A model generated the notes under the pieces. That model searched no databases, was not told the DNA's origin, and was given only the letters and a program-made list of their open reading frames with translations. The position numbers and the translations under genes are program-made. Shown here one piece after another: positions 3,812 through 64,000 of a stretch of 64,000 bases of DNA. The stretch is from Ensifer adhaerens. Lineage in GTDB: Bacteria; Pseudomonadota; Alphaproteobacteria; Rhizobiales; Rhizobiaceae. The stretch covers positions 1,064,501 to 1,128,500 of the forward strand of contig NZ_CP083350.1 of assembly GCF_020035535.1 (NCBI RefSeq). The letters run 5' to 3'. The first letter of the stretch is position 1; each line of letters opens with the position of its first letter.

Positions 3812-4557
<746 letters not shown>

Positions 4558-25768: not shown

Positions 25769-26590
25769 TCAGAGCGGCTGAGGCAGCGGCAGTCCGTCCG
25801 GGCCCATCTGCATATAGTTTGGTGACTGCGGCAACGGCTGCGAGTCCGGAAGTGGTTGTGCTCCCGGCACCGGCTGCGACTCTACCATGCCGCCGCCCGA
25901 AAGGTCGGCGACGACGATCGGCGTGCCGTTCGGCACGCGATTGTAGAGATCGACTACATCCTGGTTGATCATGCGCACGCAACCGGACGACACGGACTTG
26001 CCGATCGTCCACCATTCCGGCGAGCCGTGGATGCGATAGAGCGTATCCTCGCCATTCTGGAAAATGTACATGGCGCGGGCGCCGAGGGGGTTCTTGAGGC
26101 CGGGATCCATGCCGCCCGCCTCGATGCTGAATTGCTGCAGCTCAGGCTGGCGCGCCACCATCTCGTTCGGTGGTTTCCAGCGCGGCCATTCGCGCTTGTA
26201 CTGGATGACGCCGCGACCTGCCCAGGCGAAACCGGCGCGCCCGAGACCGACGCCGTATCGCATCGCCTGGCCGCCTTCATAGACCCGGTAGAGAAAATGG
26301 CTGCCGACGTCGACGACCAGCGTTCCCGGCTTCTCGCCCGTCGGGTCGGCGACCATCTGGCGATAGAAGCGCGGATCGATCTTCTCGTAGGGGATGGCCG
26401 GCAGCGGATAGGTTTCGTTCGGCTTCTCGCCATACATGTCCGCAAGGAACGCGTTCGTGTCGGGGACAGGTTCCGGCGCGTAGGAGCGCGTCACCATCGG
26501 CCGCGTCGAAGCGCAGCCGGCTAGACCGACAGCCGCGAGCCCCGCGGAGAGTTGCAGGAATGTGCGGCGGCGGATCTCTCTTTCAGGCAT
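25769..26590 (-). CDS. L,D-transpeptidase (YkuD), copy 3
   Basis: The 273-residue protein has a Tat-type signal RRRTFLQ, lipobox LAGC, and the catalytic motif HGSPEWWTIGKSVSSGCVR with H188 and C204. The C-terminal 45 residues are a proline/glutamine-rich tail with repeated QPLP units, absent from copies 1 and 2. It is convergent with copy 2. The high similarity of the cores (for example WPRW.PP.EMVARQP in all three) shows tandem duplication. Confidence 0.9.
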   Translation of the reverse strand: MPEREIRRRTFLQLSAGLAAVGLAGCASTRPMVTRSYAPEPVPDTNAFLADMYGEKPNETYPLPAIPYEKIDPRFYRQMVADPTGEKPGTLVVDVGSHFLYRVYEGGQAMRYGVGLGRAGFAWAGRGVIQYKREWPRWKPPNEMVARQPELQQFSIEAGGMDPGLKNPLGARAMYIFQNGEDTLYRIHGSPEWWTIGKSVSSGCVRMINQDVVDLYNRVPNGTPIVVADLSGGGMVESQPVPGAQPLPDSQPLPQSPNYMQMGPDGLPLPQPL

Positions 26591-29514: not shown

Positions 29515-31365
29515 CTATCCGACGATGTGGCGCACATCCTCGAGACGGTAATATCGAGTCGCGCCTCCGGTGACGTCAAAGATCGGCTTGATCCCTCGAT
29601 CCTCGAGGTCCTTCCGCAGTTTGCCAAGGAAGATTTTGCATCGCGAGGACAAGTCGGCCAGAGATACGTGCGCCTTCTTAAACTCGTCCAATGACCGAGC
29701 GCAGATTAAGTTTTGGCGGGTAAGTCTCAGCGGAGACACGCCTTCAATCACGTTGAGATATCCGAGCTCTACAAGTTTAAACACGGTTTTGTCGCGGGTT
29801 CTCAGGGCCGTCTTAGCTTGCAAGTAACTCATCAGCCCCGGGGTCTCGCTAGTCTTTTTACCCGCCTCCCGCGCGGCAATAAGACGCCCAGCGTCAATAT
29901 ACTGTTGAACCTCGGCTGGATCGACGGCGAGACCATTAATCAGGCTGTCTGTGTGAACGCGCCGAAGTGATGTGAGTTTGCCGTCCAGTCCGAGAGCAAT
30001 GATTTCCTCAAACTTACAACGGGCCTGCCTCGCAACTTCGGTAAAGCTCTTCAACCCTTCACGCTCTGATGCGGAAGCTTCGGTTGCATCGAGTTTCGCC
30101 TGAAAGGCATCGAAGTCACTCGGGCGAATACGTGAATATGTTCGCGCATGATTGCTGCTAAACGTCTCCACCCGGGGAATGAGGCCTGCCGCCAAGATGG
30201 CGCTCGTCCTCGCCATACTAATTCCCATTGCGTTCGAAAGGTCGCGCGACGTCATGGTTTCGAGGGCCGCGGAAAGAGTCGCGTGTGCCTTCTCCGCGTT
30301 GAAGTAGACGCGCGTGCCAACCAACTCGGACGGCTCGATCAGGCCAGCCTCAAGGACCAATTGATAGACGCGATCTTCCATCAGCTTGTATTCCATGCTG
30401 GCCGAGCGCACGGAGTGCAGATGGCGTCGGCGGGTCGGGAGGACGAAAAGTTCGTCCTGGCCGATTGGCAGGCACCGCTCCGCGATATCCTGGAAGAGCT
30501 CAACGACTGGCAAAAATTCTTCCTTGGAACAATTGCGGAGTAGCCAGGGGCGCAATTTCCCGAAGAACAGCTTCATATCCGAGGCAGGAGGCTTCACGCG
30601 CTCGACCGTAGTAGCAATGAACGCCTCAATCTGCTGTACCCCTTGAGAGGCTTGCTCGAACCCTGCCTCAACGGCTGACAAGCTGGCAAACAATTTTTCC
30701 GCTTTTGGCCGGTGCTGCTGCTCGAAGTATCCAAGGTTGCGGCAGAGATCGAGCGCGACGTATGTCTCCAGGCTATCGAGATAGGGATTGGCCTGGTCGC
30801 CTTCGATCCGCGCGGCCACGTAGGCATCGACTTGCATGGAGTCGACCTTCAAGACTTTCTCGGCTTGGCTTTCGATCGCTGCCAGGTTGTTGGCCGCGAA
30901 GCGTGAGAAATCACCCTCATCAAGCTCGCTGGCAGGCGCTTCGACAATTTCGCAGCCATGCACGAGGCAGCCTTGGGTCGCTCGAGTCATCCAGGGCACG
31001 CGGACATACGGTCGGGTGTGGGGTCGACCACTACCCCCTGCCATGTCCCCCAGCACGCATTTTGGGCAATAGCGATGACTGCGCCCAATACGCATATCCC
31101 GGCTCATCGACGCCGCCCCCAGCCTCCAAGTTGAGTGTCGTTCGGTCGTGATGTTGTAAGACTGCAGTACGTGTGGCTCGACGCCAGACCACTCGGCGAG
31201 GGTAGAAATAGCCTCAGGGCTGCCCGAGCGAACAGCGTGGGCGTTCGTATCTGTAAAATCCAGGAACTCGCGCACCGAGGAATATCCATTCGCGATTGCC
31301 AAACGCGAAAGCAAGCTCATGCGTGTTTCGTCTGAGTGGAAATCAACCGTCACAGGAAGGGTCAT
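29515..31365 (-). CDS. tniQ: TniQ/TnsD-family target-selection protein
   Basis: The 616-residue protein has the TniQ N-terminal region, with a short leader (FHSDETRMSLLSRLA) and a zinc-binding pattern CPKC (C100, C103) followed by GCLVHGC about 30 residues later. The long C-terminal part, including helix-turn-helix-like segments, is the size of TnsD rather than of short TniQ. It probably recognises a specific attachment site. It overlaps the TnsC gene by ATGA, and its own stop is followed by a strong terminator, so it closes the operon. Confidence 0.87.
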   Translation of the reverse strand: MTLPVTVDFHSDETRMSLLSRLAIANGYSSVREFLDFTDTNAHAVRSGSPEAISTLAEWSGVEPHVLQSYNITTERHSTWRLGAASMSRDMRIGRSHRYCPKCVLGDMAGGSGRPHTRPYVRVPWMTRATQGCLVHGCEIVEAPASELDEGDFSRFAANNLAAIESQAEKVLKVDSMQVDAYVAARIEGDQANPYLDSLETYVALDLCRNLGYFEQQHRPKAEKLFASLSAVEAGFEQASQGVQQIEAFIATTVERVKPPASDMKLFFGKLRPWLLRNCSKEEFLPVVELFQDIAERCLPIGQDELFVLPTRRRHLHSVRSASMEYKLMEDRVYQLVLEAGLIEPSELVGTRVYFNAEKAHATLSAALETMTSRDLSNAMGISMARTSAILAAGLIPRVETFSSNHARTYSRIRPSDFDAFQAKLDATEASASEREGLKSFTEVARQARCKFEEIIALGLDGKLTSLRRVHTDSLINGLAVDPAEVQQYIDAGRLIAAREAGKKTSETPGLMSYLQAKTALRTRDKTVFKLVELGYLNVIEGVSPLRLTRQNLICARSLDEFKKAHVSLADLSSRCKIFLGKLRKDLEDRGIKPIFDVTGGATRYYRLEDVRHIVG

Positions 31366-32354
31366 TTTTCAACCTTTTTGGAGCGGACACGCTTGGCGGC
31401 CGGAACAAGATCAATGAGGGCATTCTTTCGCTCGAGGTTGACCCACGACTCCGCAGTCATGATGTTTTCGGCAACGAGGCTACCTGACACGCGCCCATAG
31501 ACGAATTCAAAGTCCTTGGGCCCGAGATGCTTGTGGCTTTTCGAAAGCGCCTTGTAGGACGCCGCGCGGATCATTTCGATCATGGTGCCTACGCCGCCAT
31601 CCGTTGCCCGTACAAACCGGCCCAAGAAGTCATCCGTCAGGAGCTCTGGGGCAAGTTTCAAGCCGCAGTGATCGGACGCGATATCAGAAAGGATCTTGAC
31701 GATCGCGACCTGGTCCGCGGGAAAGCCGTACTTTTCGAAACGCATCACCAAGGATCGATTTGCCAGCTGTTGATCGCCCGTAAACAGAGTTGCGAGCTCG
31801 GGGACGCCGCTTACGATCATATGCAGGGGCCATTCAGGGATCGAAAGCAAGCTCTTGAAGCGATCTTGAAGTCCCCTTACCGCGGCCTCGGAATTGCTCT
31901 TCATAAGATGCTGCGCCTCATCGAGGTGCAACAGGATGGTGCCCCGCAGCCGGAGTTGCTTCTTGAGCGTGCTGTAGAGATCGTCCTCATTTGAAGCGCG
32001 GTTTGCGGGCAAGCCCAGTTGTTGGAAGATATGGATCGCCAGATCCTTTGTGGTACACGCGCGATCAACCTCCAAGCCGATGAAGGGCATCATGAGCTCA
32101 TTGAATTCATTCCTGTAGGGTTTGAATGCCTCGAAGCTGTTGAGTACGTGGTTGATGGAGGTCGTCTTCCCGCTCCCGGATTCACCGATAACGGCGAACA
32201 GACGACGGCGACTTCCACCGCCCGCCAAGCAATCCTGGGCGTGTTCCCAGAACTCCTCGATACGGGTGCGAAGGCTGTCGCTGCGATTAGAAGAAACGTA
32301 ACGCTGATTCTCGCGCACACGGAGGCCACGGAGGTCGGCACCTTGGCTGTTCAT
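31362..32354 (-). CDS. tnsC: TnsC/TniB-like AAA+ transposition ATPase
   Basis: The protein of about 330 residues has Walker A GESGSGKTT (K63), Walker B ILLHLDEAQHL, and the sensor region MIVSGVPELATLF. It should form ATP-dependent filaments on target DNA and connect TniQ with the transposase. The ATG at 32354 is preferred because GAGG lies about 9 bases upstream, two bases after the TnsB stop. An ATG at 32372 would add six residues and overlap tnsB. Confidence 0.9.
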   Translation of the reverse strand: MNSQGADLRGLRVRENQRYVSSNRSDSLRTRIEEFWEHAQDCLAGGGSRRRLFAVIGESGSGKTTSINHVLNSFEAFKPYRNEFNELMMPFIGLEVDRACTTKDLAIHIFQQLGLPANRASNEDDLYSTLKKQLRLRGTILLHLDEAQHLMKSNSEAAVRGLQDRFKSLLSIPEWPLHMIVSGVPELATLFTGDQQLANRSLVMRFEKYGFPADQVAIVKILSDIASDHCGLKLAPELLTDDFLGRFVRATDGGVGTMIEMIRAASYKALSKSHKHLGPKDFEFVYGRVSGSLVAENIMTAESWVNLERKNALIDLVPAAKRVRSKKVEK

Positions 32355-32355
32355 A

Positions 32356-34590
32356 TTAGTAATCCTCATCATACTGATTGAAATTGGATACGGACCGCGC
32401 GCTATCGGACACGTCGCCCTCGTCTTCGTTCACCTCCTCTGCGCCCTTCATCATTTTTTCCTTGGCGAAGAGATCGGCGCGATCCACCGTCAGGCCGAGA
32501 TGAAGGGGGTCATCGGCAATCGGTCCTTCTTGGAGCAGGGGTACTGTGTCTTCGGATTTCGTCACCTTCCAAGACCCAAAGACCTCGGCTTCCCATTTCA
32601 GGAAGTCGGGGGCAGTTGGAATGCGCGGGGACAGACCGGCACGAAGGGTCGCGGCTTCGCCGTTTGCGCGAAGGCGGTTGATCGCTTCGTTCATTACCTT
32701 CAGGCCCTGTTCCGCCGCGGTGGCGTAGTGCGCCCGCAATTCGTTACGGGCGGCAAGCCACTCAGCAAGCGTGACGCTGTCGTCGATGCCGACCGTGTTG
32801 CGGGCGACATGCCATCCCTTGTCCGATTTGAAAGCAACGTGTCCTACACACTCCGGATCGAACTTGATCGGAATGTCGATCTCGCCGTGCTTGGTGAACA
32901 TCCGCTGGAGCTCTGGGTCGTTGAAGGTGATACCCATGAAAGTGACCCCATAAGGCGTGATACGGCGCTCGGTCTTGTGGCCAAAGATCTGCAACATTTC
33001 AGTCGGGCCAGGCGGGTAGTCGATCTCATACTCCTTGCAAGCTTCGACCCATGCATTGTGGGGCGTGTTGCCGCCGAGGCCCGCGTGAGGCTTGTTGTGA
33101 TAGATGTCGCAGATTGCGAAGATGAAGACCTTGATAAGCTCCTCGACCAACAGCGAGGCATGCTTCTGGGGATCGTAGTCGCCCTTGGCCACAACGTTAT
33201 GGAAGGTCAGTCCGTCAAAATACGGCGCGATCAGAATGCCGATCGTGTGAAACAGCTTCTCGATGAACGGACGGCACGCGGGCTGTCCGGCGGGCGGGCG
33301 TGTAGCCTCAATCCTTGCCCGGCGCAGTACATCTTGGGTCTTATTCGAGATGAACTCCGTGCCATTGTCGTGGCTGATGAACCGGGGTCGAATTTTAGCA
33401 ATCCACGGAGTTTGTGCGCCCACATAGTCCGAGATATGGCGCTTATCCGTCATGATCATACGGATGGTCGCGACGGCTGACGCACCGTTGGGGTTCAAGC
33501 TCGCCTTGAGGGCAAGCAATTGACGTGTGGCCACATCGATAGCTCCACCGAAGTAGATACGGACACGTGGGATTTTCTCCTGAACCTCCTGCTGCAAGAC
33601 ATTCCAGATGCCGGTCTCGACCAACAGAGACATCAGATCAACGTTGAAGAAGTCCATCTCGATGCGCTGGCCCGGTGCGACAACGTTGAAGCTACGGCGG
33701 ATGTTCATGAACTTGCGGATCGCGAGTTTCTCTCCGAAACGAGCCGCCATGACGTGGAAAGCATCGAACTTGGCAATCATTGCCTCGAACTTTTTGCGCG
33801 AAACCTTGTCGACGCGTCGGGACGCTGGAAGCGTCTCGTTGTGGGCCTGCCTAGCCGCAATGTACGAACGGTAGGTAGCGGCCTTGGTTGGGCGGGTACG
33901 ATCCAGGTAGCCGGTAGCCATTTTGTGCGCGAAGGCGATCGAGGCTGGCTTGTAGCTGTACAGCTTTGGACCCGGCCCATGATGACGCGGAAGGAGCGAC
34001 ATCACGTCCATGTCGCTGCCAATATACAGGTCGTACCAACGCTTGAACGTCTTCGCACTGGGGCGCTTGAACACAGTCAGCTTTGCGGATTGGTCTGCGC
34101 GTCCACGCATGCGCGCGTCATCGGCATTGTCTTCCAGTTCGACAGCTTCATCAACGATCTGCTTGCGGTACTTTTTGAGGTAAGGTTGCAGGGTTGCCTC
34201 AGTGAAGGGGATACGCTTTCCGAGCTCTTCACAGTCAGCCATGAAGCGCAGCACGTATTGCTCCCGCCACAGAGCAGTGGTCTGATGCTTGGGCGGACGA
34301 TCTTCGAAATTGTCGTCTCCAAAAACCGCTCGGATGCCTTGCTGAGCGACGCTGTTGTAACCGTACGCAAGAACCGCTTTCTTGTTATCGAGCGCCGAGT
34401 AGATCTCCTGATGGGTGAGGAAGATTTTGCGCTCGGCGTTGTTCTCGGCTTGCATCATCCAGCCGAGATCGTCGCGTTTGGTTGGGATGAAGCACTCGTT
34501 GCGTTGCGTGCACTCGTAGCGATCGTTGTGGTTCATCGCGACGAGCGAGTGATGGAATTGGCGGGAAGGTACAGGCTGGAAGTCCATCAT
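32356..34590 (-). CDS. tnsB: TnsB-like DDE transposase
   Basis: The 744-residue protein has N-terminal DNA-binding regions followed by an integrase core. Likely catalytic residues are D at about 312 (RIEMDFFN), D at about 407 (SHDNGTEF) and E 36 residues later (RPFIEKLFH), a D-D-35-E arrangement. The Mu/TnsB C-terminal beta-barrel follows, then an acidic tail (VNEDEGDVSDSA) that could contact TnsC. It would cut and join the 3' ends. It starts 31 bases after the TnsA stop. Confidence 0.9.
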   Translation of the reverse strand: MMDFQPVPSRQFHHSLVAMNHNDRYECTQRNECFIPTKRDDLGWMMQAENNAERKIFLTHQEIYSALDNKKAVLAYGYNSVAQQGIRAVFGDDNFEDRPPKHQTTALWREQYVLRFMADCEELGKRIPFTEATLQPYLKKYRKQIVDEAVELEDNADDARMRGRADQSAKLTVFKRPSAKTFKRWYDLYIGSDMDVMSLLPRHHGPGPKLYSYKPASIAFAHKMATGYLDRTRPTKAATYRSYIAARQAHNETLPASRRVDKVSRKKFEAMIAKFDAFHVMAARFGEKLAIRKFMNIRRSFNVVAPGQRIEMDFFNVDLMSLLVETGIWNVLQQEVQEKIPRVRIYFGGAIDVATRQLLALKASLNPNGASAVATIRMIMTDKRHISDYVGAQTPWIAKIRPRFISHDNGTEFISNKTQDVLRRARIEATRPPAGQPACRPFIEKLFHTIGILIAPYFDGLTFHNVVAKGDYDPQKHASLLVEELIKVFIFAICDIYHNKPHAGLGGNTPHNAWVEACKEYEIDYPPGPTEMLQIFGHKTERRITPYGVTFMGITFNDPELQRMFTKHGEIDIPIKFDPECVGHVAFKSDKGWHVARNTVGIDDSVTLAEWLAARNELRAHYATAAEQGLKVMNEAINRLRANGEAATLRAGLSPRIPTAPDFLKWEAEVFGSWKVTKSEDTVPLLQEGPIADDPLHLGLTVDRADLFAKEKMMKGAEEVNEDEGDVSDSARSVSNFNQYDEDY

Positions 34591-34621: not shown

Positions 34622-35455
34622 TCAGGCGCGACGCAGCCAGGTCAGCTCGTCAATCCGCCCGCGTGAGACAGGTTGGAGAACGCCGCGATCAATCAGACGC
34701 CAGATAGCAGTCCGGCGCTTCGCTCGGGGCCAGCAGCCCAACAGCAACTGACCAAAGCGGAAGGTGTCGGGCATTTTCAGCAAGATGTTGTGGAGGACGG
34801 CGCACTCCGCATCGTCGTGATGATCGCGGGACGACAGGAGGAAGAAGGCGTTTTCGAACGCCTCGTACGTGGCCTGCGCATCGGTTACCAATGCGACGGC
34901 ATCGGCTACGCCAGGAGTAGCCGCTCCGTACTTGTCGACCCCCGTGATGCCGTTTGCGCAGATGCGATCCAGGAGTTGGAGCATCTCTTCGCGTTTGGGC
35001 TCATACTTCACCGCAATGGCAATACGCGTTCCGTCCGTCCATTCGGCGAAGTAGTCGAAGGTGTGATGACGGGCGGTTCCATCATCATCGACATATTCCA
35101 CCTTCGGGTATTGGGAGATGAGCCGTGCAAGGCCCCGGTAGGTTTTCAGCACCAGGCTTACCCGATGCTCAAGCTCGCTCTCATGGTAGATAACAGTGTC
35201 ACCATGAAATACGTGGCCACGAGCGGTTTTCGCCTGCTTCAGCGCAGGAGTACGAACGGCGAGACCGTGATCCGGTTCACGCCAAACCGTGGTCGAGCGT
35301 TCCGCCCTGTCGGTGTCGGCCCCACGGTAGTTGATGGATCCAGAAGGTGCACGATGAAGGTCGTTCAGCGTCAGTGAACCCGCAGGAAAGGACAACTCCT
35401 GCATGCCAGCGCGTTTCAGATAGAGATGTTTCGCAATCTTGTGAGTGTGAAGCAC
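34622..35455 (-). CDS. tnsA: TnsA-like endonuclease of the Tn7-like element
   Basis: The 277-residue protein has a PD-(D/E)xK-like nuclease core: E94 (in SELEHRV), D134 (TFDYFAEW) and K150 (IAVKYEPK). TnsA cuts the 5' strands, so the element would move by cut-and-paste. The usual QxK is VK here. A C-terminal winged-helix-like part follows. The start is GTG at 35455 with GGAG 7 bases upstream. It leads the operon tnsA-tnsB-tnsC-tniQ. Confidence 0.8.
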   Translation of the reverse strand: MLHTHKIAKHLYLKRAGMQELSFPAGSLTLNDLHRAPSGSINYRGADTDRAERSTTVWREPDHGLAVRTPALKQAKTARGHVFHGDTVIYHESELEHRVSLVLKTYRGLARLISQYPKVEYVDDDGTARHHTFDYFAEWTDGTRIAIAVKYEPKREEMLQLLDRICANGITGVDKYGAATPGVADAVALVTDAQATYEAFENAFFLLSSRDHHDDAECAVLHNILLKMPDTFRFGQLLLGCWPRAKRRTAIWRLIDRGVLQPVSRGRIDELTWLRRA

Positions 35456-37550: not shown

Positions 37551-40500
37551 ATGGATGAGGAAGCGCGACCGGGGCGCCCGCGGAAAGATGCTGCGGCAAT
37601 TGCACAGCCGACGCTTGAGCTCGTGCTGGCTTATTTCGCTGACTATACTCGCATAATGGACAGCGGTCGGCCGTGGATCTACCGCGCAGCCGTCCAAAAC
37701 CGTCATGAAGATGTGGACTATTATGCGGGCGTCGGCGCAACGTCAGACAACTGCTTGGAAAAGATCGGCTTCCGCGGCAAGCTGTATGCGCTTTACCTTA
37801 TTGAAAGACACCGTAATCGATTAGGAAAGACCGCCGCCGACCTCGCTAAAGCTATCGTATCAACGAGCTCTCGAAATGCGTCCGTCGAAGTTAAGAAGCA
37901 ACTGGAAAAGGATGCCGAAAGAAGAGCCCTCATCAGCGGTTTTAGTAGGCTTCTGTCGACAAAGAACATCAAGGCTCTGCCGAGGGACGGCGACAGAGAT
38001 GTTTTGCGGGCTTGCGCGGTCGTATACTTCGCGGACCTTTTGCTATCCGTAGGCTGTAGACAAGGCCGTACCAGTGTTGAAGCACGACTAGACGCGTTGC
38101 TCGCCAGTCAAAGTGAGTTTCCCGACGTCAGAACCTGCTACGAGCACCTTCTACGCGATTTTGAGATCACGAAGAGCTTCAAGGAAAATCAGAACAAACC
38201 GTTCCCGCCGACACGTTTCTCCTCTCAGGCTGAAAAGGCGCTGTCGTCGCCGAAACCCGCCAATGAACCAGTGCCTACTCCACCGGGGCCCGCCCCGGCG
38301 GCCGCTCGGTCTTGGATGGACGAAGAGTTTCGTCGACAAATCACTGATAGCACCCGCACCTATCCAGAAGAGCAAGCTAAGACGGAGCTCGGGGCGCTAG
38401 CGCGAGAGTTACATGACAAACTAACAGATCGGTCGAAGCCCCAGAAGCTGGCAATCCTCCAAGGCGCGCCTCACAGCGGGAAAAAGAGCGTCATCGCCGA
38501 GATGCTACGGGAGATCGACCGAAAGTCAAAAAACGCAACCCTCATGGGGTTGGTAGACCGTGATGATGACGTTATCGAACTTCCGGTCATGGCAATTGTC
38601 GCCCGATCGCGCGACCAGAACGCTCTTGCCTTGTATATTCGGGCCTTTCTTCAAAGGTTGGACGACATCGAAAATGCTGTTGTGCCCTATTGGGCGACGA
38701 AGCCCGGCACGCCCGAATTGGAAAGCTATCACAGCGAGCTTGTGAAACAAGCGCGTGAAGCCGGGGGAATGGTTTCGACCGAACGAACGCTGGCCGAAAT
38801 CGCCCGCCTATCCGCGCGTCATCCTGCTTGCTACTTCTTCGCCGATGTCGACGGATTGGGCAGAGATTCCATCCTCAAGCTCCTTCTCGGCTACGAAGCG
38901 ACACGGTTGTTGAATATTCTCAATAACCACCGCGACACGCGGATCGTTGTGTCTGCCTACGATCGGTCCGCAGCTCCAGAAATACGGCTCGACTTGGACG
39001 AAGCGGCGGTGATTCAGGAACCGGTCCCCAATCCCGAGTTGGGGAGGCTGACCCGATATTGGCACGGGAAATCGGCGAAGCCAGTCAGAAAAGAGCTGGT
39101 GACAATCTGGCAAACGCTTCGCGACGAACTCAAACTCACGGAACGCCATCAGAAACTTGAAGGCGAATCCCTTGTCGTTGCCGCCGCAATTCTTCAACAT
39201 TGTGCCCAGGAAAAGGGCCGGTACGGAAAGCGGATCGATGAAACGGTGTCGGCGATTGCAAGTTTCGCAAGGAAAAGAAACCAGGCTGAGCTAACTGCGA
39301 AACTCTCCGCGATCCTGCTGTCAATCTTTGAAGCCGAGAACCTGCTTCCCGCGGTCTCTTTGATCTTGGCCGCTGAAGATGGTCTGTTGCGCGGAACGCT
39401 GATCAGGAGCTTGGAGTCGTGGAAGATCGACGCTCCCGACTTCTTCCGGCTCAGCACCGAGGGTCAGGATGATGTCGAGTTAAAGCTTAAGCGCTTTAAA
39501 GATTTGGCGGGTGGCTTCTTTCTACGACAAGAGAGGAATGTAAGGCTCGATGAGCATGAATTTGGACTCGATGAAACGGAATGGAGGTTGGAAAAGAGCC
39601 TGTTCGGCGATGAATTCCACCCTTTGTCGGACGCTGACGTCGAAGGACTTTTGGTGTGGTCTTTCGATCCGGCGGTCCGCACCAGTCTGATCAGACAGCT
39701 TCAGATCGAAGGTGGTCAATATGACATCCTGTTCAGACAAGCGAATCGACTGGTCGCCCGTGCTGCTCGTCGCCGAGCTCAGCATAAAAAGGTCAACCTT
39801 CCGACGCCATTCTCTATGCAGCCGCAAACAGACAGCGCCCGGGACATTCAAGCCTACATCTGCCTCCTGGCCAGCATTACGGAAAAGGACATTGTGAGAG
39901 ATGGTGGCGCCGAAGCATCATTGTTCGCTTCGACGGAGAGCATCTTTTCTCTTGGGGGCGATTTCAATGGCGGGGTTGCACTCAACTTTGCCTATTTCGG
40001 TTTGCTTCGAGAGGACATCGATCGCGACTTCCGCCTTAGCATGGTATCCGATCAGGACATGCTCAGGCTGCGCCTCTATTTGTTGATGCTCCTGCCGAAG
40101 GGGCAGCATCATTTTGATTTTATCGCTGCACTACCGGGAGATGGCAGCTTGCCCGGCGCTCTTCCTCCGAAGATCCCGGATCATATTGTCGCGACTTTCG
40201 ACCCCGACACAATTGTGCGCCTGTGCGCAACTATCGCCATCTCGGCCTTTCACGCGCATCAGCCGAAATTGATCGATTATGCGCAAAGGTTACTTGATGA
40301 ATACCTGATCTCGCAATGTGGGGCGATAGAGAAGTACTATCCATTTGTCGCTCAGATGATTGAGGATATCGCCCACGTCTGGTTCGCAAAGCTCGATTGG
40401 ATGTTCTCTTTTCGGAAAAACGAAGATTTCGATGACTGGAAACCTCTCATCGACGAGCTGTTAGGCAAGCAACTCTTCGAGGACCTGAGCTTCGAGAATC

Positions 40501-41333
40501 CGAAGGGACTCTTGGCCATTTACGACGAGCCCGGTGGGGCTCAGAAGCTCAGGGTTTGGATGCGGCTGAAGTTTAGGGAAGCCGAGGTTCTTCACCTAGA
40601 ATCGGCGCACGAGAAGGCGCGCGAGATAATGAGAGCTGTGGTGGAGCTTGATAATTTCATCAGCGCTGAGAAAAAGCTGATAGAGCCGCTTGTCTTCAGC
40701 GGCAGAACTGCTCGGCGGTTCATAAGATATGCTTTCGGTGAACCGCTGATAAGGTCGCCTCATGTCACTTCCTCGTTTATCGAAGAGAGTGCCAAAGCGA
40801 TGATTGAGGTTAACATATCGAGACAAAGGCGTTTTGCAGGTGTCGACAGAATTGGCGTGCTGATTGATCTCGCCCGCCGCCATGTTTTTGAGGGTAATGT
40901 CACGAAAGCCGTCGGTTATATCACCAATGCCAACATTCGTGCTCGGCGCGGGCCGATGAGTTACTCGGCTCGCCTGGAACTGCTCGCATGTCTGTCTTCG
41001 ATCAGGTTGTGGTGCGCGCTGAGCGGTGAAATCGAGGGCCAGCGAGAGCAAAGACAATTTTTGCAAAAGGCGCGAGAAAGCGCGTTGAAACTTATCAACC
41101 TTGGGAATGTCGTAGATTCTAAGTACTTTCAGTCGATAGGCAAATTTTTGGCAGCGAAAGCTTTTGTCGAGCGTATAAAGCTCTCTGATGCCGCCCGGAG
41201 TACCAAGGTAAGCCGTGCTCTAGCGATCTGCTCTGGAGATCTAAGGGAGTGCGCGGAATGGCTCAATCGCATAGGCGATCGGCTCTATTACAAAGCAATT
41301 GGCGACTTGATTGAAGACATCGAGAACATTTAA
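37551..41333 (+). CDS. large STAND-like P-loop protein of unknown function (candidate defence gene)
   Basis: The 1,260-residue protein has three parts. The N-terminal 225 residues are helical with no recognised enzyme motif and end in a proline-rich linker (KPANEPVPTPPGPAPAAA). A P-loop NTPase core follows: Walker A GAPHSGKKS (residues 305-313), Walker B CYFFADVDG (D432, D434) and a sensor-like RIVVSAYDRS strand. The final 700 residues are mostly helical and could be a repeat-type sensor, as in STAND proteins. There is no membrane segment. GC content falls below that of the host genes. It is a single-gene unit between a dioxygenase and an RNA-like repeat in an island that carries Kiwa, so an anti-phage role is possible but inferred. 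Confidence 0.6.
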   Translation: MDEEARPGRPRKDAAAIAQPTLELVLAYFADYTRIMDSGRPWIYRAAVQNRHEDVDYYAGVGATSDNCLEKIGFRGKLYALYLIERHRNRLGKTAADLAKAIVSTSSRNASVEVKKQLEKDAERRALISGFSRLLSTKNIKALPRDGDRDVLRACAVVYFADLLLSVGCRQGRTSVEARLDALLASQSEFPDVRTCYEHLLRDFEITKSFKENQNKPFPPTRFSSQAEKALSSPKPANEPVPTPPGPAPAAARSWMDEEFRRQITDSTRTYPEEQAKTELGALARELHDKLTDRSKPQKLAILQGAPHSGKKSVIAEMLREIDRKSKNATLMGLVDRDDDVIELPVMAIVARSRDQNALALYIRAFLQRLDDIENAVVPYWATKPGTPELESYHSELVKQAREAGGMVSTERTLAEIARLSARHPACYFFADVDGLGRDSILKLLLGYEATRLLNILNNHRDTRIVVSAYDRSAAPEIRLDLDEAAVIQEPVPNPELGRLTRYWHGKSAKPVRKELVTIWQTLRDELKLTERHQKLEGESLVVAAAILQHCAQEKGRYGKRIDETVSAIASFARKRNQAELTAKLSAILLSIFEAENLLPAVSLILAAEDGLLRGTLIRSLESWKIDAPDFFRLSTEGQDDVELKLKRFKDLAGGFFLRQERNVRLDEHEFGLDETEWRLEKSLFGDEFHPLSDADVEGLLVWSFDPAVRTSLIRQLQIEGGQYDILFRQANRLVARAARRRAQHKKVNLPTPFSMQPQTDSARDIQAYICLLASITEKDIVRDGGAEASLFASTESIFSLGGDFNGGVALNFAYFGLLREDIDRDFRLSMVSDQDMLRLRLYLLMLLPKGQHHFDFIAALPGDGSLPGALPPKIPDHIVATFDPDTIVRLCATIAISAFHAHQPKLIDYAQRLLDEYLISQCGAIEKYYPFVAQMIEDIAHVWFAKLDWMFSFRKNEDFDDWKPLIDELLGKQLFEDLSFENPKGLLAIYDEPGGAQKLRVWMRLKFREAEVLHLESAHEKAREIMRAVVELDNFISAEKKLIEPLVFSGRTARRFIRYAFGEPLIRSPHVTSSFIEESAKAMIEVNISRQRRFAGVDRIGVLIDLARRHVFEGNVTKAVGYITNANIRARRGPMSYSARLELLACLSSIRLWCALSGEIEGQREQRQFLQKARESALKLINLGNVVDSKYFQSIGKFLAAKAFVERIKLSDAARSTKVSRALAICSGDLRECAEWLNRIGDRLYYKAIGDLIEDIENI

Positions 41334-42990: not shown

Positions 42991-43593
42991 TTGCAATTCA
43001 GGTTTCTGGCATCGCTTATCGTATTCATAGGCTCGTATTTCCCACTGAGCTTGATTCTGCTCGCCCAAGACTTCCGATACGAATTGCTGTGGGCACCTTT
43101 GTGCTGGCCCGGTACAGCGGGCTGCGTGCTTCCTCTCCAAAACGGAGTCCTTTCCTTCGGCGTTTTCCTTGTTTGCTTGGTATGCCTTCTGTTCTCTCTG
43201 GGCGTTTTATCAACCGTAACGCCAAAAACTCCCGTAAATATCCATGAAGCAAAATATATCCCGGCAGAATTGATGGCATATACTCTACCATATGTCGTCT
43301 CGTTCATGAGTCTTGAGTATAAAGATACGGGGAAATTCGTGGGCCTTCTCATATTCTTAGGTTGGATGTTCATCATCACCTACAGATCAGGGCAACTGAT
43401 CCTTAACCCACTCCTCATTGTGTTCGGGTGGCGGCTTTACGAGGTCACGCTCTCGTATCCGGGGAACAGCCAATCTCGTATTACATCTTGGGCGCTATCG
43501 AAGGCAGACCTGCAGCCCGATACCCGTTGCAGTGTCGCCACCATCCAGGACGTCAAAATCATAAAGTCGATTAGAGTGGAAGGTGACGACTGA
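42991..43593 (+). CDS. kwaA: Kiwa anti-phage system, membrane subunit KwaA
   Basis: The 200-residue protein has four predicted membrane segments (residues about 6-24, 50-72, 88-106 and 113-145 region) and a cytoplasmic tail of about 55 residues, matching KwaA in size and build. The start is a TTG at 42991 with GGTAGGG 7 bases upstream; a stop at 42979 excludes earlier starts. Published work describes Kiwa as a membrane-bound complex that senses phage at attachment and passes the signal to KwaB. The stop overlaps the kwaB start (TGATG). Confidence 0.8.
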   Translation: MQFRFLASLIVFIGSYFPLSLILLAQDFRYELLWAPLCWPGTAGCVLPLQNGVLSFGVFLVCLVCLLFSLGVLSTVTPKTPVNIHEAKYIPAELMAYTLPYVVSFMSLEYKDTGKFVGLLIFLGWMFIITYRSGQLILNPLLIVFGWRLYEVTLSYPGNSQSRITSWALSKADLQPDTRCSVATIQDVKIIKSIRVEGDD

Positions 43594-44519
43594 TGCCAGC
43601 ACTAGAGGAATTACGGGCTCTTGATCTCGCGGATGCCCATGTGACCTTGTGGACGATTAAAGGCCCGACCGGACCCGCAGCGGAAGCCCCCCGCTTTTCG
43701 GGTCGATGGGTGGATACGACAGATGAGGTCGACGCCGCCTTGAAGGAAACCTTTGCAGCCGAGCTCGCGAAGATTGAGGAGGTGCTGGAATACAGCCTGC
43801 TTGCCCAGAATAATGAAGCTAGCGCACTACAGATCCCCGCCGATGAAACACATGCCGGCTTGTTGCTAGACGAAATAGCTGCCGAAGTGGATGGAAAAAA
43901 AGCCTCCCAGGTCAATCATCTACTCAACTCAAAATTCTACGTGGCGAAATTCATTGTCGACGACCAGATCGCTTACGCAGTTCGCAAAACAGAACCCAGT
44001 TGGAGGACCAAGAAAGCTCTGTCCTTCAGGAGCCTGTATTTCGCGGACGAGCAGTTGGCGATCGATAATCGGCCGCACTTTGAATTGGGTAAGACGTTCG
44101 ATTTTATCGTTTTTGATCACACGGTCCTCGTCCGAAATAAGAGCGCATTCGAGTCCTTGCTGCGTTACAAAAGCACCCAACGTGACGACTTTGTAGAGCT
44201 TCAAGCAGAAGAGGAATTCTTGAGCGCATTTGTCGACGTCGCGCCCTTGGTCGAATACGTTGGAGACAACAAGATTCAATTGAGACGTGCCTGTGCGATC
44301 CGTGACAAAGGCCACTATCGCGATGCCGAATTCATGCAGCGGCTAAGGGATAACCAGGCCGAGTATGGGCTGGTCATCCAGTTCGACGATGATGGGAAGA
44401 TCATTGTGACACCGGAAACATGTCCGCAAATTATGAAAGCGCTCCTCGACCATCGCCTAAAGTCAGGCTTCTCGACCTTGGTTTACGACGTCCAGGACAC
44501 CACACCCGTCCACGTGTAG
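43593..44519 (+). CDS. kwaB: Kiwa anti-phage system, effector KwaB (DUF4868)
   Basis: The 308-residue cytoplasmic protein matches KwaB/DUF4868 in length and in characteristic stretches such as FVAKFIVDDQ-like YVAKFIVDDQIAYAVRKTE, FDFIVFDHTVLVRNKSAFES and VEYVGDNKIQLRRACAIRDKG. KwaB binds DNA and blocks phage replication and late transcription when triggered by KwaA. It is translationally coupled to kwaA and followed by a terminator, so the two genes form a complete unit. Confidence 0.85.
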   Translation: MPALEELRALDLADAHVTLWTIKGPTGPAAEAPRFSGRWVDTTDEVDAALKETFAAELAKIEEVLEYSLLAQNNEASALQIPADETHAGLLLDEIAAEVDGKKASQVNHLLNSKFYVAKFIVDDQIAYAVRKTEPSWRTKKALSFRSLYFADEQLAIDNRPHFELGKTFDFIVFDHTVLVRNKSAFESLLRYKSTQRDDFVELQAEEEFLSAFVDVAPLVEYVGDNKIQLRRACAIRDKGHYRDAEFMQRLRDNQAEYGLVIQFDDDGKIIVTPETCPQIMKALLDHRLKSGFSTLVYDVQDTTPVHV

Positions 44520-57484: not shown

Positions 57485-58906
57485 CTACGGGTTGAGCATC
57501 GTTCCAAGATTTGCAGCAGCGGCGGTGGGCGGCGGGCACTCGGGTATGGTTTGCGTAGCTGCCTCCCCGGACTGGACCGCGACCAGAGTGACTATGCCAT
57601 TCTTCGCCTCGAGTATTGGGCTGCCTGACATGCTCTTTTCAGTCTGGCAGTTGTGAACGAGCCCGCGTCCAGAGATGCCGTACACGCGGCAACCTGGTTC
57701 GAGCGACAGGCTTGCCGCGCCAAATAGCCCATTACTCGGTTCATTAGTCGCTTTGGCAAGGGCCCGCAGGAACGGGTTTACCCCGACGACGTAAAGTGGG
57801 GCCCATAAATCAGGAGCGTTGCCGATCGCGAACCCGGACGGTAGTTCGACAGCGCCTGTCGTGGGTATGAAGACGGCGTCTTGGCTTTCGGGATAGTCGT
57901 AACCAATGATGTCTTCATCGACATGAACGGCGAACTTCTTGCCGTCGAATGCTGTAAAAGTAAGATCGGCGAAATTCTCGGCATACTGCAGTCGTCCATC
58001 TCCGGCACCTCGCGTGACTTCGCCAATGCAGTGTGCCGCAGTCACAAGTCCGACCTCACCGCTGGAACGATGAGCGATTGAGGCCGTACATAAAACTGGA
58101 ACGCCGGGTCTATGCAGTTCACCGACGCTGCGCTTTACGTCGGGAACAAAGTTGGCCCCAAGAAGCGCTCCCAGTGACTTGGTCATTTTCAAATCAGCGA
58201 GCGGATGTAAGCACAGCTTTCGGTAGTTTTCGAAGATGCTGAAGGCGCTCTTCTCTTCGTCACGCGTTCGCTGACCGGTAAGAACTTGCAAGTACCTTGA
58301 TCCAAGCTCGTTGCGTTGGTCGAGCACGAGGTCAGCTGCCGCACTGCATTCCTCTGTCTCCCGTTGACGCAACATGAGTTCGCGCCAGTACTCCGCTGGA
58401 CGGTCACCCGAGGAGTTGCATAACAGCGACGTCTTCTTGTCGTGTTCTGCAGCTTGCTCAAGCCCCGCCCGGTCAATTCGGAATGCTGAAATTGTGCCGG
58501 TGGGTAACAGCGAACCAGTATCATCGTTGAACAGACCGTCAAAGGCCGGAGTAGGTGAACGCAAGATAAGGTCGGTACCGTTGAACCTAGTCAAGTTCTC
58601 TATGCGAGATGGTAGGCTCAGGGTGACATTGCCGCTTTCAAATCGGAAGTTTCCGTTCTGAGTTAGTTCATCGCATTTATCGCAGGCGCAAGGATCAAGC
58701 TTGCATAACGGGGCTGCTCGCCAATTGTTTAGATCACGAGCCCGCATGTAAGCAAAGTCACACGCATTCGGATCTTCCTTGCAAAGGTCGACTACCCTCT
58801 CGATACTTTTGTCGTGGTTCAATCCTTGGGCCAGGCCGGGACCGAACGGAACAATCAAAAGACCAATCCAGGAAATGGTGAGCGTGATCGATAGTTTGAA
58901 GGTCAT
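57485..58906 (-). CDS. secreted trypsin-like serine protease (S1 family)
   Basis: The 473-residue protein has a signal peptide (LLIVPFGPGLAQG) and a cysteine-rich N-terminal region of about 240 residues (CKLDPCACDKC). A C-terminal trypsin-like domain follows, with H292 (VTAAHCIG), D343 (SQDAVFI) and S427 (SMSGSPIL). The catalytic triad is complete, although the GDSGGP box is replaced by SMSGSP. The ATG at 58906 is chosen for its signal peptide and AGGTG upstream. It lies 8 bp after the metalloprotease gene as the last gene of a three-gene operon. Confidence 0.82.
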   Translation of the reverse strand: MTFKLSITLTISWIGLLIVPFGPGLAQGLNHDKSIERVVDLCKEDPNACDFAYMRARDLNNWRAAPLCKLDPCACDKCDELTQNGNFRFESGNVTLSLPSRIENLTRFNGTDLILRSPTPAFDGLFNDDTGSLLPTGTISAFRIDRAGLEQAAEHDKKTSLLCNSSGDRPAEYWRELMLRQRETEECSAAADLVLDQRNELGSRYLQVLTGQRTRDEEKSAFSIFENYRKLCLHPLADLKMTKSLGALLGANFVPDVKRSVGELHRPGVPVLCTASIAHRSSGEVGLVTAAHCIGEVTRGAGDGRLQYAENFADLTFTAFDGKKFAVHVDEDIIGYDYPESQDAVFIPTTGAVELPSGFAIGNAPDLWAPLYVVGVNPFLRALAKATNEPSNGLFGAASLSLEPGCRVYGISGRGLVHNCQTEKSMSGSPILEAKNGIVTLVAVQSGEAATQTIPECPPPTAAAANLGTMLNP

Positions 58907-58914
58907 GACCGCAC

Positions 58915-59745
58915 CTAACGTGGCAATTGGCTGGTCGCCTTGGGATAGAGTTTTGCAATCACCGCCTTGTCGAGCGACGAGAGTTGCTCGTTCCACCCGA
59001 CGGCGTCTGACGGATCAGTCACAAGTGAGGCATCGATCGGATAATGCATGATGGATGTCTGGTCATAGCCTGAGCCATTGACTTGGCTCAGTTGATATTT
59101 CTTGAAAATTTGCCGGCGGACATCGTCCTCGCTCCAACCCTGTTTTTTGTAGTACGCAAAGACGGCTTTTTCTTTCCAACTGATTTTGCCGCCGGGGTGA
59201 CTGTGTTCGTGAACAAGGGAAAGCGCATGCCCAAACTCGTGCAGGCAGACGCGGCTGAATTCACCATCGGCTGTCTTAGAATCAAACCAGCCGAAATTCA
59301 TTGAGGGTCGCCCACGTTGCGCGTAGTAACGGCTGTCGGTTCCAATGTAGCTCCAAGATCCGCCCTTATCAAAGGCAATGAGGATATCAGGATCGGAAGG
59401 CCCAAATCGGAAATTCATTCCGATGTGATCTTCCCAGCCACGCGCGTTTTTGATTACTTTGTCGAGGTAGGTCGGCTCGTCAAGGAAACTGACATTCAAG
59501 ATTCGACGCTTGGGGTTCCATTTTTTCTTATACAGTGAGATCGCCTCGGAATGCGGGAGATTCTGGCGCGCCGGATCATTATCCGGATTCTCGTCAATGG
59601 CTATTTCCAATGACGCTTTAAAATCCGCCATCACTAGTTCAGTGCACACTAGCGGTTCAGGTTCGCCTGCGACGGCGTCAACGCGGCAGCAAAGGCAGAT
59701 CGGTGCAAGGCTCGTAAACCTCAAAAACTCTCGTCTTCCCAGCAT
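58915..59745 (-). CDS. secreted metzincin-type zinc metalloprotease
   Basis: The 276-residue protein has an export signal (GRREFLRFTSLAPICLC, Tat-like). Its catalytic zinc site HEFGHALSLVHEH (H169, E170, H173, H179) and a Met-turn SIMHYP (M233) place it in the metzincins, closest in pattern to astacin/M12A or related families. It should act in the periplasm or outside the cell. It is preceded within 3 bp by the lipoprotein gene and followed within 8 bp by the trypsin-like gene, so the three are probably co-expressed. Confidence 0.85.
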   Translation of the reverse strand: MLGRREFLRFTSLAPICLCCRVDAVAGEPEPLVCTELVMADFKASLEIAIDENPDNDPARQNLPHSEAISLYKKKWNPKRRILNVSFLDEPTYLDKVIKNARGWEDHIGMNFRFGPSDPDILIAFDKGGSWSYIGTDSRYYAQRGRPSMNFGWFDSKTADGEFSRVCLHEFGHALSLVHEHSHPGGKISWKEKAVFAYYKKQGWSEDDVRRQIFKKYQLSQVNGSGYDQTSIMHYPIDASLVTDPSDAVGWNEQLSSLDKAVIAKLYPKATSQLPR

Positions 59746-59748
59746 TTT

Positions 59749-60468
59749 TCACATCGCCTTTCTTGGGCCGTGATCAAATTGACGTCCTCCGTCGACGGGC
59801 TTTCCTCCTCTAATCCTGACCGCCTTGATGACGATATTAATGTGCTGGACGTCTGACCGTGACGTATCGAAGGAGGCCCCAAGCTTGACCGGAACAATAT
59901 CGAAATCGACGCCGCCCTTTGCTCCTCTTTTGAGAATGAAATTGCTGTCATAGGTGTACTTCTTCATTGACGCATAAGGCGGTCCCGCGACAGCAAGGTT
60001 GATGCCGGTCACTGCCTGCGCAAGCCAAGAAGAGAAGCCAGCATCCTGGTACTGCCCATCGATAGCCCGGCAGGCCGCTCCGTCGCCTTGGGCAATCGAC
60101 ACGTCGAACTCTGTAGTCGTATTGTTTGTCAAGGTTGCGTCTCGAGAAACGCTGAAACTTGGACTGAGGGTTCCAGCGCCGCTTGATATCGGAATGCCCG
60201 CAGAGGCGGATCCCCCTAGCGTGTTGCCAGCGATGACGTTGACGTCGAGCTTTACGACGGCAGTTGCTCCCCTAACACCGCTGCGATCGTACGTGTCCAG
60301 CGCGACGGCAGTAGAGAGACCGCATTTCAGCGTGTCGATTACAGCTTGGACAGGTACAACCGGAGCGTTCGCGGCCTGCTCGCGAAATTGTGCGCCCCCG
60401 CAGCTGGCAAGCAACAGAGAAGTAATCAGCAAGGCGGTTGCCCTGCTTCCTGCAGTGTTAAGTATCAT
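59749..60468 (-). CDS. lipoprotein at the head of the protease operon
   Basis: The 239-residue protein has a signal peptide and lipobox (LLLASCGG). The middle region has two cysteines and alternating beta-like segments (ATAVVKLDVNVIAG, TEFDVSIAQG, HINIVIKAVRI). The order of a short helix (VIDTLKCGLSTAV) and then beta strands loosely recalls the trypsin-co-occurring (Trypco2) domain, but I cannot confirm this. GAGGGAG lies 6 bases before the ATG. It could be an inhibitor, receptor or cofactor for the proteases. Confidence 0.7.
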   Translation of the reverse strand: MILNTAGSRATALLITSLLLASCGGAQFREQAANAPVVPVQAVIDTLKCGLSTAVALDTYDRSGVRGATAVVKLDVNVIAGNTLGGSASAGIPISSGAGTLSPSFSVSRDATLTNNTTTEFDVSIAQGDGAACRAIDGQYQDAGFSSWLAQAVTGINLAVAGPPYASMKKYTYDSNFILKRGAKGGVDFDIVPVKLGASFDTSRSDVQHINIVIKAVRIRGGKPVDGGRQFDHGPRKAM

Positions 60469-62226: not shown

Positions 62227-64000
62227 TCACACCGCCCAGCAGGAGCATCCAAGCGCGCCGAAGAAACCCTTAATGTCGGCGATCGGCAGCTTTGACGTCC
62301 AGGCGCCGGCATGGTCGTGACCATGGACGCCGCAGTTGCTGGCGCAGCCGCAGGACGTGATCGCGGTGCGCCGGAGCGAGCGCTTGCCGGCGCCCTCGGG
62401 TTCACCCCAGGCGGCATAGCCGCCGAAGGTGCGAACCGGCGACCAGTCGGGCATTGCCGGCGGCACCGGGTTCTCGTCGTGAGAGGCGAAGTCGCCGGCC
62501 GCATAGACGATCTTGCCGCCGACCATGGTCAGTTCCGAGGTCAGGAACGAGATCTCGTCCTCGGCGCAGTTGAAAAAGTCCTTGTTCGGTACGATCAGGT
62601 CGGCGAACTGCCCCTTCTCGATCCGCCCCTTCTTGCCTTCCTCGTTGGAGAACCACTGCACCTTTTCGGTCCACATCCGAAGCGCCGTTTCGCGGTCGAG
62701 GCAGTTGGCGCGCGGGTAGAGCTGCAGGCCGCCGACGGTCTTGCCGGTCACCATCCACGACAGCGAAACCCAGGGATTGTAGGAGGCGACACGGGTCGCG
62801 TCGGTGCCGGCGGAGACGTTGACGCCCTTTGCCAGCATCTTGGCCACCGGTGGCGTTGCTTCAGCGACGCCATGGCCGTAACGCTCGACGAAGTACTCGC
62901 CCTGATAGGCCATGCGATGCTGGACGGCGATGCCGCCGCCAAGGGCGGCGATCCGGTCGATCGAGCGGTCGGAGATCGTCTCGGCATGGTCGAAGAACCA
63001 GTTGATGCCCTCAAGCGGGATCTCCCGGTTGACCTTCTCGAAGACGTCGAGCGCACGGGTGATCGTCTCGTCATAGGTGGCATGCAGTCGCCAGGGCCAG
63101 CGGTTCTCGGCAAGAATGCGTACGACCTCTTCGAGTTCGCCCTCCATCTCCGGCGGCATGTCCGGGCGCGGCTCGCGGAAGTCCTCGAAGTCGGCGGCGG
63201 AAAACACCAGCATCTCGCCGGCACCGTTGTGGCGGAAATAGTCGTTGCCCTGTTTGTATTTGACCGAGGACGTCCACTTCAGGAAGTCTTCCTTTTCCTG
63301 CTTCGGCTTCTGGGTGAAGAGGTTGTAGGCAAGCCGCACCGTCATCTGGCCTTCGTCGGCGAGCTTCTGGATGACGGCGTAGTCATCCGGATAGTTCTGG
63401 AAGCCGCCGCCGGCGTCGATGACGCTGGTGACCCCCAAGCGGTTGAGCTCGCGCATGAAATGGCGGGTGGAGTTGACCTGATAGTCGAAGGGCAGTTTCG
63501 GCCCCTTGGCGAGTGTCGAATAGAGGATGCCGGCATTGGGCTTGGCCAGGAGCAGGCCGGTCGGGTTGCCATTGGCATCCCGGGTGATCTCGCCGCCCGG
63601 CGGGTTCGGCGTGTCCCTGGTATAGCCGACCGCCCGGAGTGCTGCGGCATTGAGCAGTGCCCGGTCGTAGAGGTGCAGCAGGAACACCGGCGTATCCGGC
63701 GCGACCGCATTGATCTCGTCGATCGTCGGCAGGCGTTTTTCTGCAAACTGATGCTCGGTGAAACCGCCGACGACCCGCACCCATTGCGGCGCCGGCGTGA
63801 TCGCCACCTGCCGCTTCAGCATCGCCATTGCATCGGCAAGCGAACGCACGCCGTCCCAGCGCAGCTCCATGTTGAAGTTGAGGCCGCCGCGCACGACGTG
63901 GGTATGGTTGTCGTTCAAGCCCGGCAGGACGCGCTTGCCCTTGAGGTCGATCGTCTTTGTGCCTGAGCCCGCCAGCGCCATGATCGTCCTGTCGTCACCG
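62227..64000 (-). CDS. YtcJ/LAF3-type amidohydrolase, 5' end outside the window
   Basis: The visible 591 codons include the metal-binding LPGLNDNHTHVVRG segment at the start of the barrel, later NWFFDHAETISD and SAGTDATRVASYNPW. This is the pattern of amidohydrolase superfamily 3 (COG1574). The frame continues past the ATG at 63981 to the window edge (residues GDDRTI before it), so the true start lies outside. The C-terminus is unusual: a cysteine-rich tail with CGCASNCGVHGHDHAG and GCSCWAV after the normal end of the fold. Substrate is unknown. Confidence 0.88.
   Translation of the reverse strand, partial: GDDRTIMALAGSGTKTIDLKGKRVLPGLNDNHTHVVRGGLNFNMELRWDGVRSLADAMAMLKRQVAITPAPQWVRVVGGFTEHQFAEKRLPTIDEINAVAPDTPVFLLHLYDRALLNAAALRAVGYTRDTPNPPGGEITRDANGNPTGLLLAKPNAGILYSTLAKGPKLPFDYQVNSTRHFMRELNRLGVTSVIDAGGGFQNYPDDYAVIQKLADEGQMTVRLAYNLFTQKPKQEKEDFLKWTSSVKYKQGNDYFRHNGAGEMLVFSAADFEDFREPRPDMPPEMEGELEEVVRILAENRWPWRLHATYDETITRALDVFEKVNREIPLEGINWFFDHAETISDRSIDRIAALGGGIAVQHRMAYQGEYFVERYGHGVAEATPPVAKMLAKGVNVSAGTDATRVASYNPWVSLSWMVTGKTVGGLQLYPRANCLDRETALRMWTEKVQWFSNEEGKKGRIEKGQFADLIVPNKDFFNCAEDEISFLTSELTMVGGKIVYAAGDFASHDENPVPPAMPDWSPVRTFGGYAAWGEPEGAGKRSLRRTAITSCGCASNCGVHGHDHAGAWTSKLPIADIKGFFGALGCSCWAV

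Follow-up and report, generated by a model that had tools for sequence, protein, structure and literature searches.

A 64,000-nucleotide stretch of an Ensifer adhaerens contig (NZ_CP083350.1, positions 1,064,501 to 1,128,500), referred to below as the window, encodes a lipoprotein and two proteases in a compact minus-strand gene cluster. Read from the frames of the window, the three genes are co-directional and ordered lipoprotein, metzincin, trypsin-like protease:

59749..60468, minus strand: lipoprotein of 239 amino acids, with lipobox LASC at residues 20-23 and a region assigned as a diverged C-terminal Trypco2 domain
58915..59745, minus strand: metzincin (astacin-like, M12A) of 276 amino acids, with zinc site HEFGHALSLVHE, Met-turn SIMHY and an RREFLRF signal
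57485..58906, minus strand: trypsin-like serine protease of 473 amino acids from its ATG, with a signal peptide and H292/D343/S427

Gaps of 3 bp and 8 bp separate the lipoprotein from the metzincin gene and the metzincin from the trypsin gene, respectively. The trypsin frame opens with a GTG at 58996, and its likely start is the ATG at 58906, 8 bp past the metzincin stop, where a hydrophobic signal follows directly (by eye). An initial annotation, made from the sequence alone, had given coordinates, strand and gaps that agree with the frame list, and its export signals on all three products were found again as a lipobox, a twin-arginine-like signal and a hydrophobic signal. Between 57.2 and 61 kb there were 3 promoter-like sites (1.9 in shuffled sequences) and 3 terminator-like sites (4.0 in shuffled sequences); as these counts are about those of the shuffles, operon status rests on spacing and conservation. 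The closest relatives were 71% (lipoprotein), 79% (metzincin) and 67% (trypsin) identical, all three reported with one contig size of 23,719 bases, and these relatives together with the invariant active-site residues ruled out chance open reading frames.

The lipoprotein carries its lipid cysteine at position 23, and a permissive lipobox pattern fitted 22 of 24 family members. A protein search returned 23 relatives with aligned identities of 40-71%. The only Pfam family that the window protein matched at an expectation value (E) of 1 or better was Trypco2 (PF19631), with 17.8 bits against a cut-off of 24.2. Searched member by member, PF19631 matched 22 of the 24 aligned proteins singly (E ≤ 1; best 9.8e-7), while every other family matched at most 4 of the 24; this bears out the Trypco likeness that the initial annotation had offered as a guess. 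PF19631 was also present in the precomputed annotation of 6 of the 23 homologues, and a scan of 150 genomes of the order with the Pfam model found matches in 5. The AlphaFold2 model of the lipoprotein (mean predicted local distance difference test score, pLDDT, 69.3; predicted template modelling score 0.64) showed a helix followed by three strands, twice:

N-terminal half: helix 40-57, strands 69-83, 88-93 and 115-124
C-terminal half: helix 145-158, strands 170-181, 189-194 and 208-215

Genome G086 (locus L031) encodes a 201-amino-acid protein in which Trypco2 occurs twice (3e-19) and which has a signal peptide by eye. Its gene overlaps by 4 bp a trypsin gene whose product likewise has a signal peptide (by eye); exported Trypco2-trypsin pairs therefore exist. 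The lipoprotein profile aligned with this protein colinearly over both halves (hhalign 38%, 3.3e-4, single comparison). When the halves were compared using a wider lipoprotein profile with L031 left out, the C-terminal half matched the second Trypco2 domain of L031 with 90.5% probability (1.4e-6, single comparison), and the N-terminal half matched the first domain at 0.036. The two halves of the lipoprotein matched each other at 1.2e-3 over 29 columns in the wider alignment and gave no signal in the narrower one (0.17), and Pfam found no Trypco2 match in six isolated N-terminal halves. The lipoprotein profile had no match among PDB sequences at E ≤ 1, and a fold search with the model gave no significant match, a result that rules out no family. 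We assign the C-terminal half (residues ~138-222) to a diverged Trypco2 domain on the strength of these profile matches, and the similar predicted topology suggests that the N-terminal half may be a second, more diverged copy.

The metzincin scored 29.3 bits against Pfam Astacin (PF01400; cut-off 22.5), and its family profile matched myroilysin (5gwd) at 1.5e-65. The HExxHxxGxxHE motif and Met-turn Tyr of M12A are present, with the motif Gly replaced by Ser in the window, and residues H169, E170, H173, H179, E180, M233 and Y235 were each conserved in 27/27 aligned sequences. A twin-arginine motif is, as a rule, the mark of a twin-arginine translocation (Tat) export signal. In RREFLRF we recognise a motif of this type, with Arg at its two positions in 19/27 and 20/27 sequences (6 rows being gapped), and Tat use is predicted. 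Myroilysin is kept latent by a cysteine switch. In the propeptide of the window protein, before the catalytic domain, Cys34 (within CTEL) is shared by 22/27 metzincins, with 4 gaps and 1 Leu elsewhere, and is a candidate counterpart of that switch. The likeness to myroilysin (M12A; 5gwd, 5czw, 5zjk) spans the catalytic domain; the window protein differs in its twin-arginine-like signal, the Gly to Ser change in the zinc motif, and its trypsin and lipoprotein partners. An NCBIfam match to 'beta-glucuronidase AbsR1' (1.7e-25) was rejected, its 89.8 bits being far below the cut-off of 650. The name is an odd one for a model matched by a metzincin.

For the trypsin-like protease, three regions were distinguished:

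Residues ~24-137: cysteine-rich, modelled with low confidence
Residues ~140-260: mostly helical
Residues ~261-473: S1 fold

The AlphaFold2 model had a mean pLDDT of 65.6, poor at residues 15-137 and better in the helical region and S1 domain. H292, D343 and S427 were each conserved in 11/11 aligned sequences, so that the complete trypsin triad described at the outset is invariant, as are the zinc site and Met-turn across the 27 metzincins. Fourteen cysteines were kept in at least 10 of the 11 sequences, nine of them before residue 240. Pfam PF13365 gave 19.4 bits, below its cut-off of 27.6; the triad, placed in a predicted trypsin fold, supports assignment to S1. Foldseek returned 203 PDB matches at E ≤ 0.001, the best 50 of which were mostly chymotrypsin-fold proteases, and DegP was among the fold matches. 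The best three rows belonged to the umbrella toxin particle Umb1 (chains of 8w20; 14% identity, target template modelling score 0.30-0.52). Their scores are no better than those of plain proteases ranked below, and the likeness is probably just the shared chymotrypsin fold. A PADLOC match of the trypsin to LmuA (E 0.034) was dismissed as chance. Among PDB sequences, E. coli YdgD (7uxg; 1.1e-4) was the one match of the family profile with E ≤ 0.1. It shares the S1 domain, triad and SGSP box; the window protein differs in at least ~200 extra N-terminal residues, cysteine-rich and then helical. The SGSP of YdgD also disposes of the suggestion that the glycine box of the window trypsin, SMSGSP, is anomalous, since it falls within the normal family range.

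The YdgD and DegP matches raise the alternative that the operon serves envelope quality control or regulated proteolysis of the DegP or YdgD kind, with the lipoprotein as an outer-membrane anchor. The residue after the lipid cysteine bears on the membrane destination of a lipoprotein, and Gly at this position fits an outer-membrane anchor. Such a role is improbable given how sporadic the operon is, with lipoprotein relatives in 8/397 genomes of the order (1/385 in a class-wide set) and the trypsin in 2/394 genomes of the taxonomic family, the window's own genome being counted each time and the second trypsin being a weak partial match (2.0e-6). The surrounding low-GC region with its transposition genes, described below, is also unlike a housekeeping setting. 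The initial annotation had named independent housekeeping homologues of the proteases as grounds for abandoning its view; none emerged for the close families, the trypsin having 10 non-self members in a search that scored its 7994 best candidates, and a match in 1 other genome of 394.

Contig sharing among relatives was inferred from equal sizes of the longest contig reported for each relative. The counts omit the window's own proteins (P0024, P0145), the metzincin relatives are the best 120 of 611, and the trypsin search scored its 7994 best candidates. All three families shared contigs of 23,719 and 13,232 bases; lipoprotein and trypsin also shared a 190,728-base contig, lipoprotein and metzincin one of 275,073 bases, and metzincin and trypsin contigs of 208,225, 4,151, 2,904 and 12,884 bases. 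Among the 10 non-self trypsins, sharing was seen with a listed metzincin for at least 6, with a lipoprotein for 3 and with either for at least 7. In the window itself, the trypsin gene lies two genes downstream of the Trypco2 lipoprotein gene on the same strand, which places Trypco2 and trypsin in adjacency.

Diverged metzincin-trypsin pairs were found at three further loci, two of them with a lipoprotein or its remnant. In Mesorhizobium WSM3626 (L004), a metzincin (75.7 bits) and a trypsin (32.9 bits) are encoded 1 bp apart; 1.9 kb downstream follows a Trypco2 lipoprotein (48% identity), and a gene with a weak likeness to CHAP (2.2e-4, below cut-off) lies in between. LuxR and LuxI genes (1323-2808) lie upstream of this pair with one gene intervening, which suggests quorum-sensing control. 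On Sinorhizobium terangae plasmid pCB3126_1 (L021), a 5'-truncated lipoprotein remnant is followed by metzincin (21.3 bits to the window-type family A3; Astacin 1.4e-7) and trypsin (Trypsin_2 6.3e-10), the order of the window. Caspase-GH25 and GH25 genes stand 3-6 kb away on the opposite strand, the former (2593-4524) being an exported-looking fusion of caspase (3.2e-13) and GH25 muramidase (5.2e-33) beside the second GH25 gene. In genome G215 (L058), a metzincin gene (65 bits to A3, no Pfam match) is overlapped by a trypsin gene (Trypsin_2 2.1e-12), and no lipoprotein was seen at the locus. In G335 (L049), the metzincin is followed by a caspase. Bradyrhizobium barranii plasmid pBb1S5b (L022, 4965-10753) resembles the operon in encoding an astacin-like metzincin (255.8 bits to A3) with a trypsin; it differs in an intervening caspase gene and in the great length of its trypsin protein, which has two trypsin stretches, and no Trypco2 lipoprotein was found within the 10.7 kb examined. 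L022 is a different multi-protease cluster.

Unrelated secreted genes brought together by chance would account for the lipoprotein and proteases lying apart in distant relatives, and are very improbable given the 3- and 8-bp gaps, the two contig sizes common to all three families with six more common to pairs, and the diverged metzincin-trypsin pairs elsewhere. The three genes form a coherent but sporadic association whose parts also combine otherwise. Viral contigs yielded no relative of the lipoprotein or trypsin, and phage records, searched with the lipoprotein and not with the proteases, no relative of the lipoprotein; a phage origin of the operon was rejected on these grounds. Distant metzincins (≤ 40% identity) occurred at 16 viral-contig loci. 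In plasmid records, the lipoprotein was found in 1 (S. terangae) and the metzincin in 15, all below 60% identity, and the trypsin in none.

The names Trypco1 and Trypco2 were given to products of genes that adjoin those for trypsin-like peptidases in VMAP ternary systems (PMC7159879), and both are regarded as adapter domains (PMC10907252). As in those MoxR-vWA systems (PMC7159879), a Trypco2-type domain is encoded in the window beside a trypsin-like protease; the operon differs in the lipoprotein signal on its Trypco2 protein, in the added metzincin, and in lacking an adjoining MoxR, vWA or VMAP. System 3 NucA-trypsin loci, mostly alphaproteobacterial, are a second point of comparison, and a trypsin-based proteolytic cascade was proposed for them by their authors (PMC7159879). 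Unlike these, the three operon proteins and the four neighbours scanned matched neither a NucA nuclease nor EAD1. In the available parts of PMC7159879 and PMC10907252, no export, lipid anchor or metzincin partner was found for Trypco2-trypsin. The Trypco2-trypsin association is already known, and its exported, lipid-anchored, metzincin-joined form is new within that literature, so far as these parts represent it.

Judged by sequence, the operon combines a lipoprotein of diverged Trypco2 type with an astacin-like and a trypsin-like protease; an export signal is present on every product, and the active-site residues of both proteases are intact. We favour, at a probability of about 45%, the reading that it represents the Trypco2-trypsin conflict module in exported form, as an envelope-tethered, zymogen-controlled protease pair. 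The metzincin would be exported folded via Tat and held latent by Cys34 acting as a cysteine switch, and the trypsin would be exported via the general secretory (Sec) route and held latent by its cysteine-rich N-terminal region; the pre-catalytic regions of both proteases could keep them inactive. In the periplasm, the Trypco2 lipoprotein, tethered to the membrane, would serve as an adapter or sensor by binding the trypsin. When the envelope is disturbed, for instance by a phage that infects or a competitor that attacks, one of the proteases would be released or activated and would in turn activate the other; the active pair would then degrade envelope proteins. That the metzincin comes first and acts on the trypsin is a guess from gene order. 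A bolder version seems unlikely in its full form: a periplasmic counterpart of cytoplasmic protease-based conflict systems, with Trypco2 as receptor and a metzincin-to-trypsin zymogen cascade as surface guard against phage, plasmids or rivals, with no NTPase. Such a cascade would follow a logic like that of complement or clotting in animals.

Export signals on all three products and zymogen-like regions ahead of both catalytic domains would also suit the main rival. In it, the cell secretes the proteases as weapons or as scavenging enzymes, for antagonism or nutrition, and the lipoprotein keeps them harmless in the producer's own periplasm, as a self-protection protein or an inhibitor. The position of the L004 pair downstream of LuxR/LuxI and near the weakly CHAP-like gene is consistent with this. 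So is the occurrence of distant lipoproteins near varied exported hydrolases, including a nuclease-family protein (L023) and polysaccharide lyases, as expected of a general protector or partner. Trypco2 is nowhere described as an inhibitor in the available parts of PMC7159879 and PMC10907252, however, and Sec or Tat signals by themselves leave proteins periplasmic; secretion genes were not searched for. We regard this alternative as possible and, on balance, doubtful. At L023, the gene 1 bp upstream of the distant lipoprotein (6352-8185) is of the endonuclease/exonuclease/phosphatase family with a signal peptide by eye, and a nuclease version of the Trypco2 module is possible there. The nuclease-family match at L030 was below cut-off.

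The surroundings of the operon set it apart from the rest of the window. The guanine-plus-cytosine (GC) content is 60-66% at 1-30 kb, falls to 52-58% between 30 and 62 kb and is 63% at 62-64 kb, and the low-GC stretch and its left edge also hold the following genes:

42991-43593, plus strand: KwaA of a Kiwa defence system (PADLOC 1.3e-72)
43593-44519, plus strand: KwaB of the same system (PADLOC 2.2e-119; Pfam KwaB 3.4e-24)
29515..34590, minus strand: Tn7-like TniQ, TniB/TnsC and TniA/TnsB (Pfam and PADLOC)

The complete Kiwa system lies ~13 kb from the operon in the same low-GC stretch, in line with the link to defence loci envisaged in the initial annotation. For the transposition genes, Pfam matches were above cut-off for TniQ (1.5e-12) and TniB (1.8e-13) and under it for rve (1.9e-4) and Mu-transpos_C (6.6e-4), and PADLOC gave TniQ 1.2e-18, TnsC 2.7e-7 and TnsB 2.5e-7. 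Just upstream, at the position of a possible TnsA-like partner, a gene for 277 amino acids (34622-35455) was matched by neither Pfam nor PADLOC at E 0.001, and the same held for a 1260-amino-acid protein encoded at 37551-41333 in the low-GC stretch. The region further holds a PIN-domain gene (Pfam) and a gene for a 291-amino-acid protein with a match to the initial portion of the PADLOC models called Aga_REase-PNTD1-PNTD2. A search of the window with ARAGORN yielded no tRNA gene. Flanking genes 62227-63981 and 25769-26590 were both present in 16/16 genomes of the genus, and their best copies were side by side in 0/15 others, lying on different contigs in 11 and more than 500 kb apart on one contig in 4; no empty site was therefore found, and the bounds of an island are unproved.

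Several observations weigh against an exported Trypco2-trypsin conflict module. No MoxR, vWA or VMAP was found beside the operon (frames at 54-64 kb; 7 proteins scanned, the three of the operon and four neighbours), and the operon therefore lacks the core that carries signalling in the known systems. Taken alone, the window lipoprotein is under the Pfam cut-off for Trypco2, and in the genome scan the window's own genome was not matched by the Trypco2 model. The three operon proteins had no PADLOC match at E ≤ 0.001, and the Kiwa neighbourhood is weak evidence. Co-occurrence of the three genes, by which the initial annotation had set store, held in close relatives, where they share contigs, and failed in distant ones: among the 8 further genomes that have a distant lipoprotein (G014 and seven from the order scan, two of them weak at 1.2e-4 and 3.0e-4), none had a metzincin or trypsin relative at E 0.001. 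Among the selected neighbours scanned at L023, L026, L030 and L031, those of the distant lipoproteins included polysaccharide lyases at L023 and L026 and, at L030, a phospholipase D-like protein. Window-type metzincins occurred in 13/397 genomes (E ≤ 1e-10), and within 4.5 kb, with a limited query set, only 1 of the 12 non-own genomes had a trypsin next to the metzincin and 1 a caspase.

Since the guessed Trypco2 likeness holds, the finding is somewhat stronger than a note from sequence alone could show. Trypco2 and its trypsin partners have been predicted from genomics and placed mainly in nucleoside triphosphate (NTP)-dependent systems, according to the available parts of PMC7159879 and PMC10907252. 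With a compact exported module of three genes, the role of Trypco2 could be tested directly on purified parts, without large NTPases. The three genes may be an envelope-located version of the suspected protease-based immune systems of bacteria and, if so, would point to the periplasm as a place where bacteria deploy protease-triggered defence.

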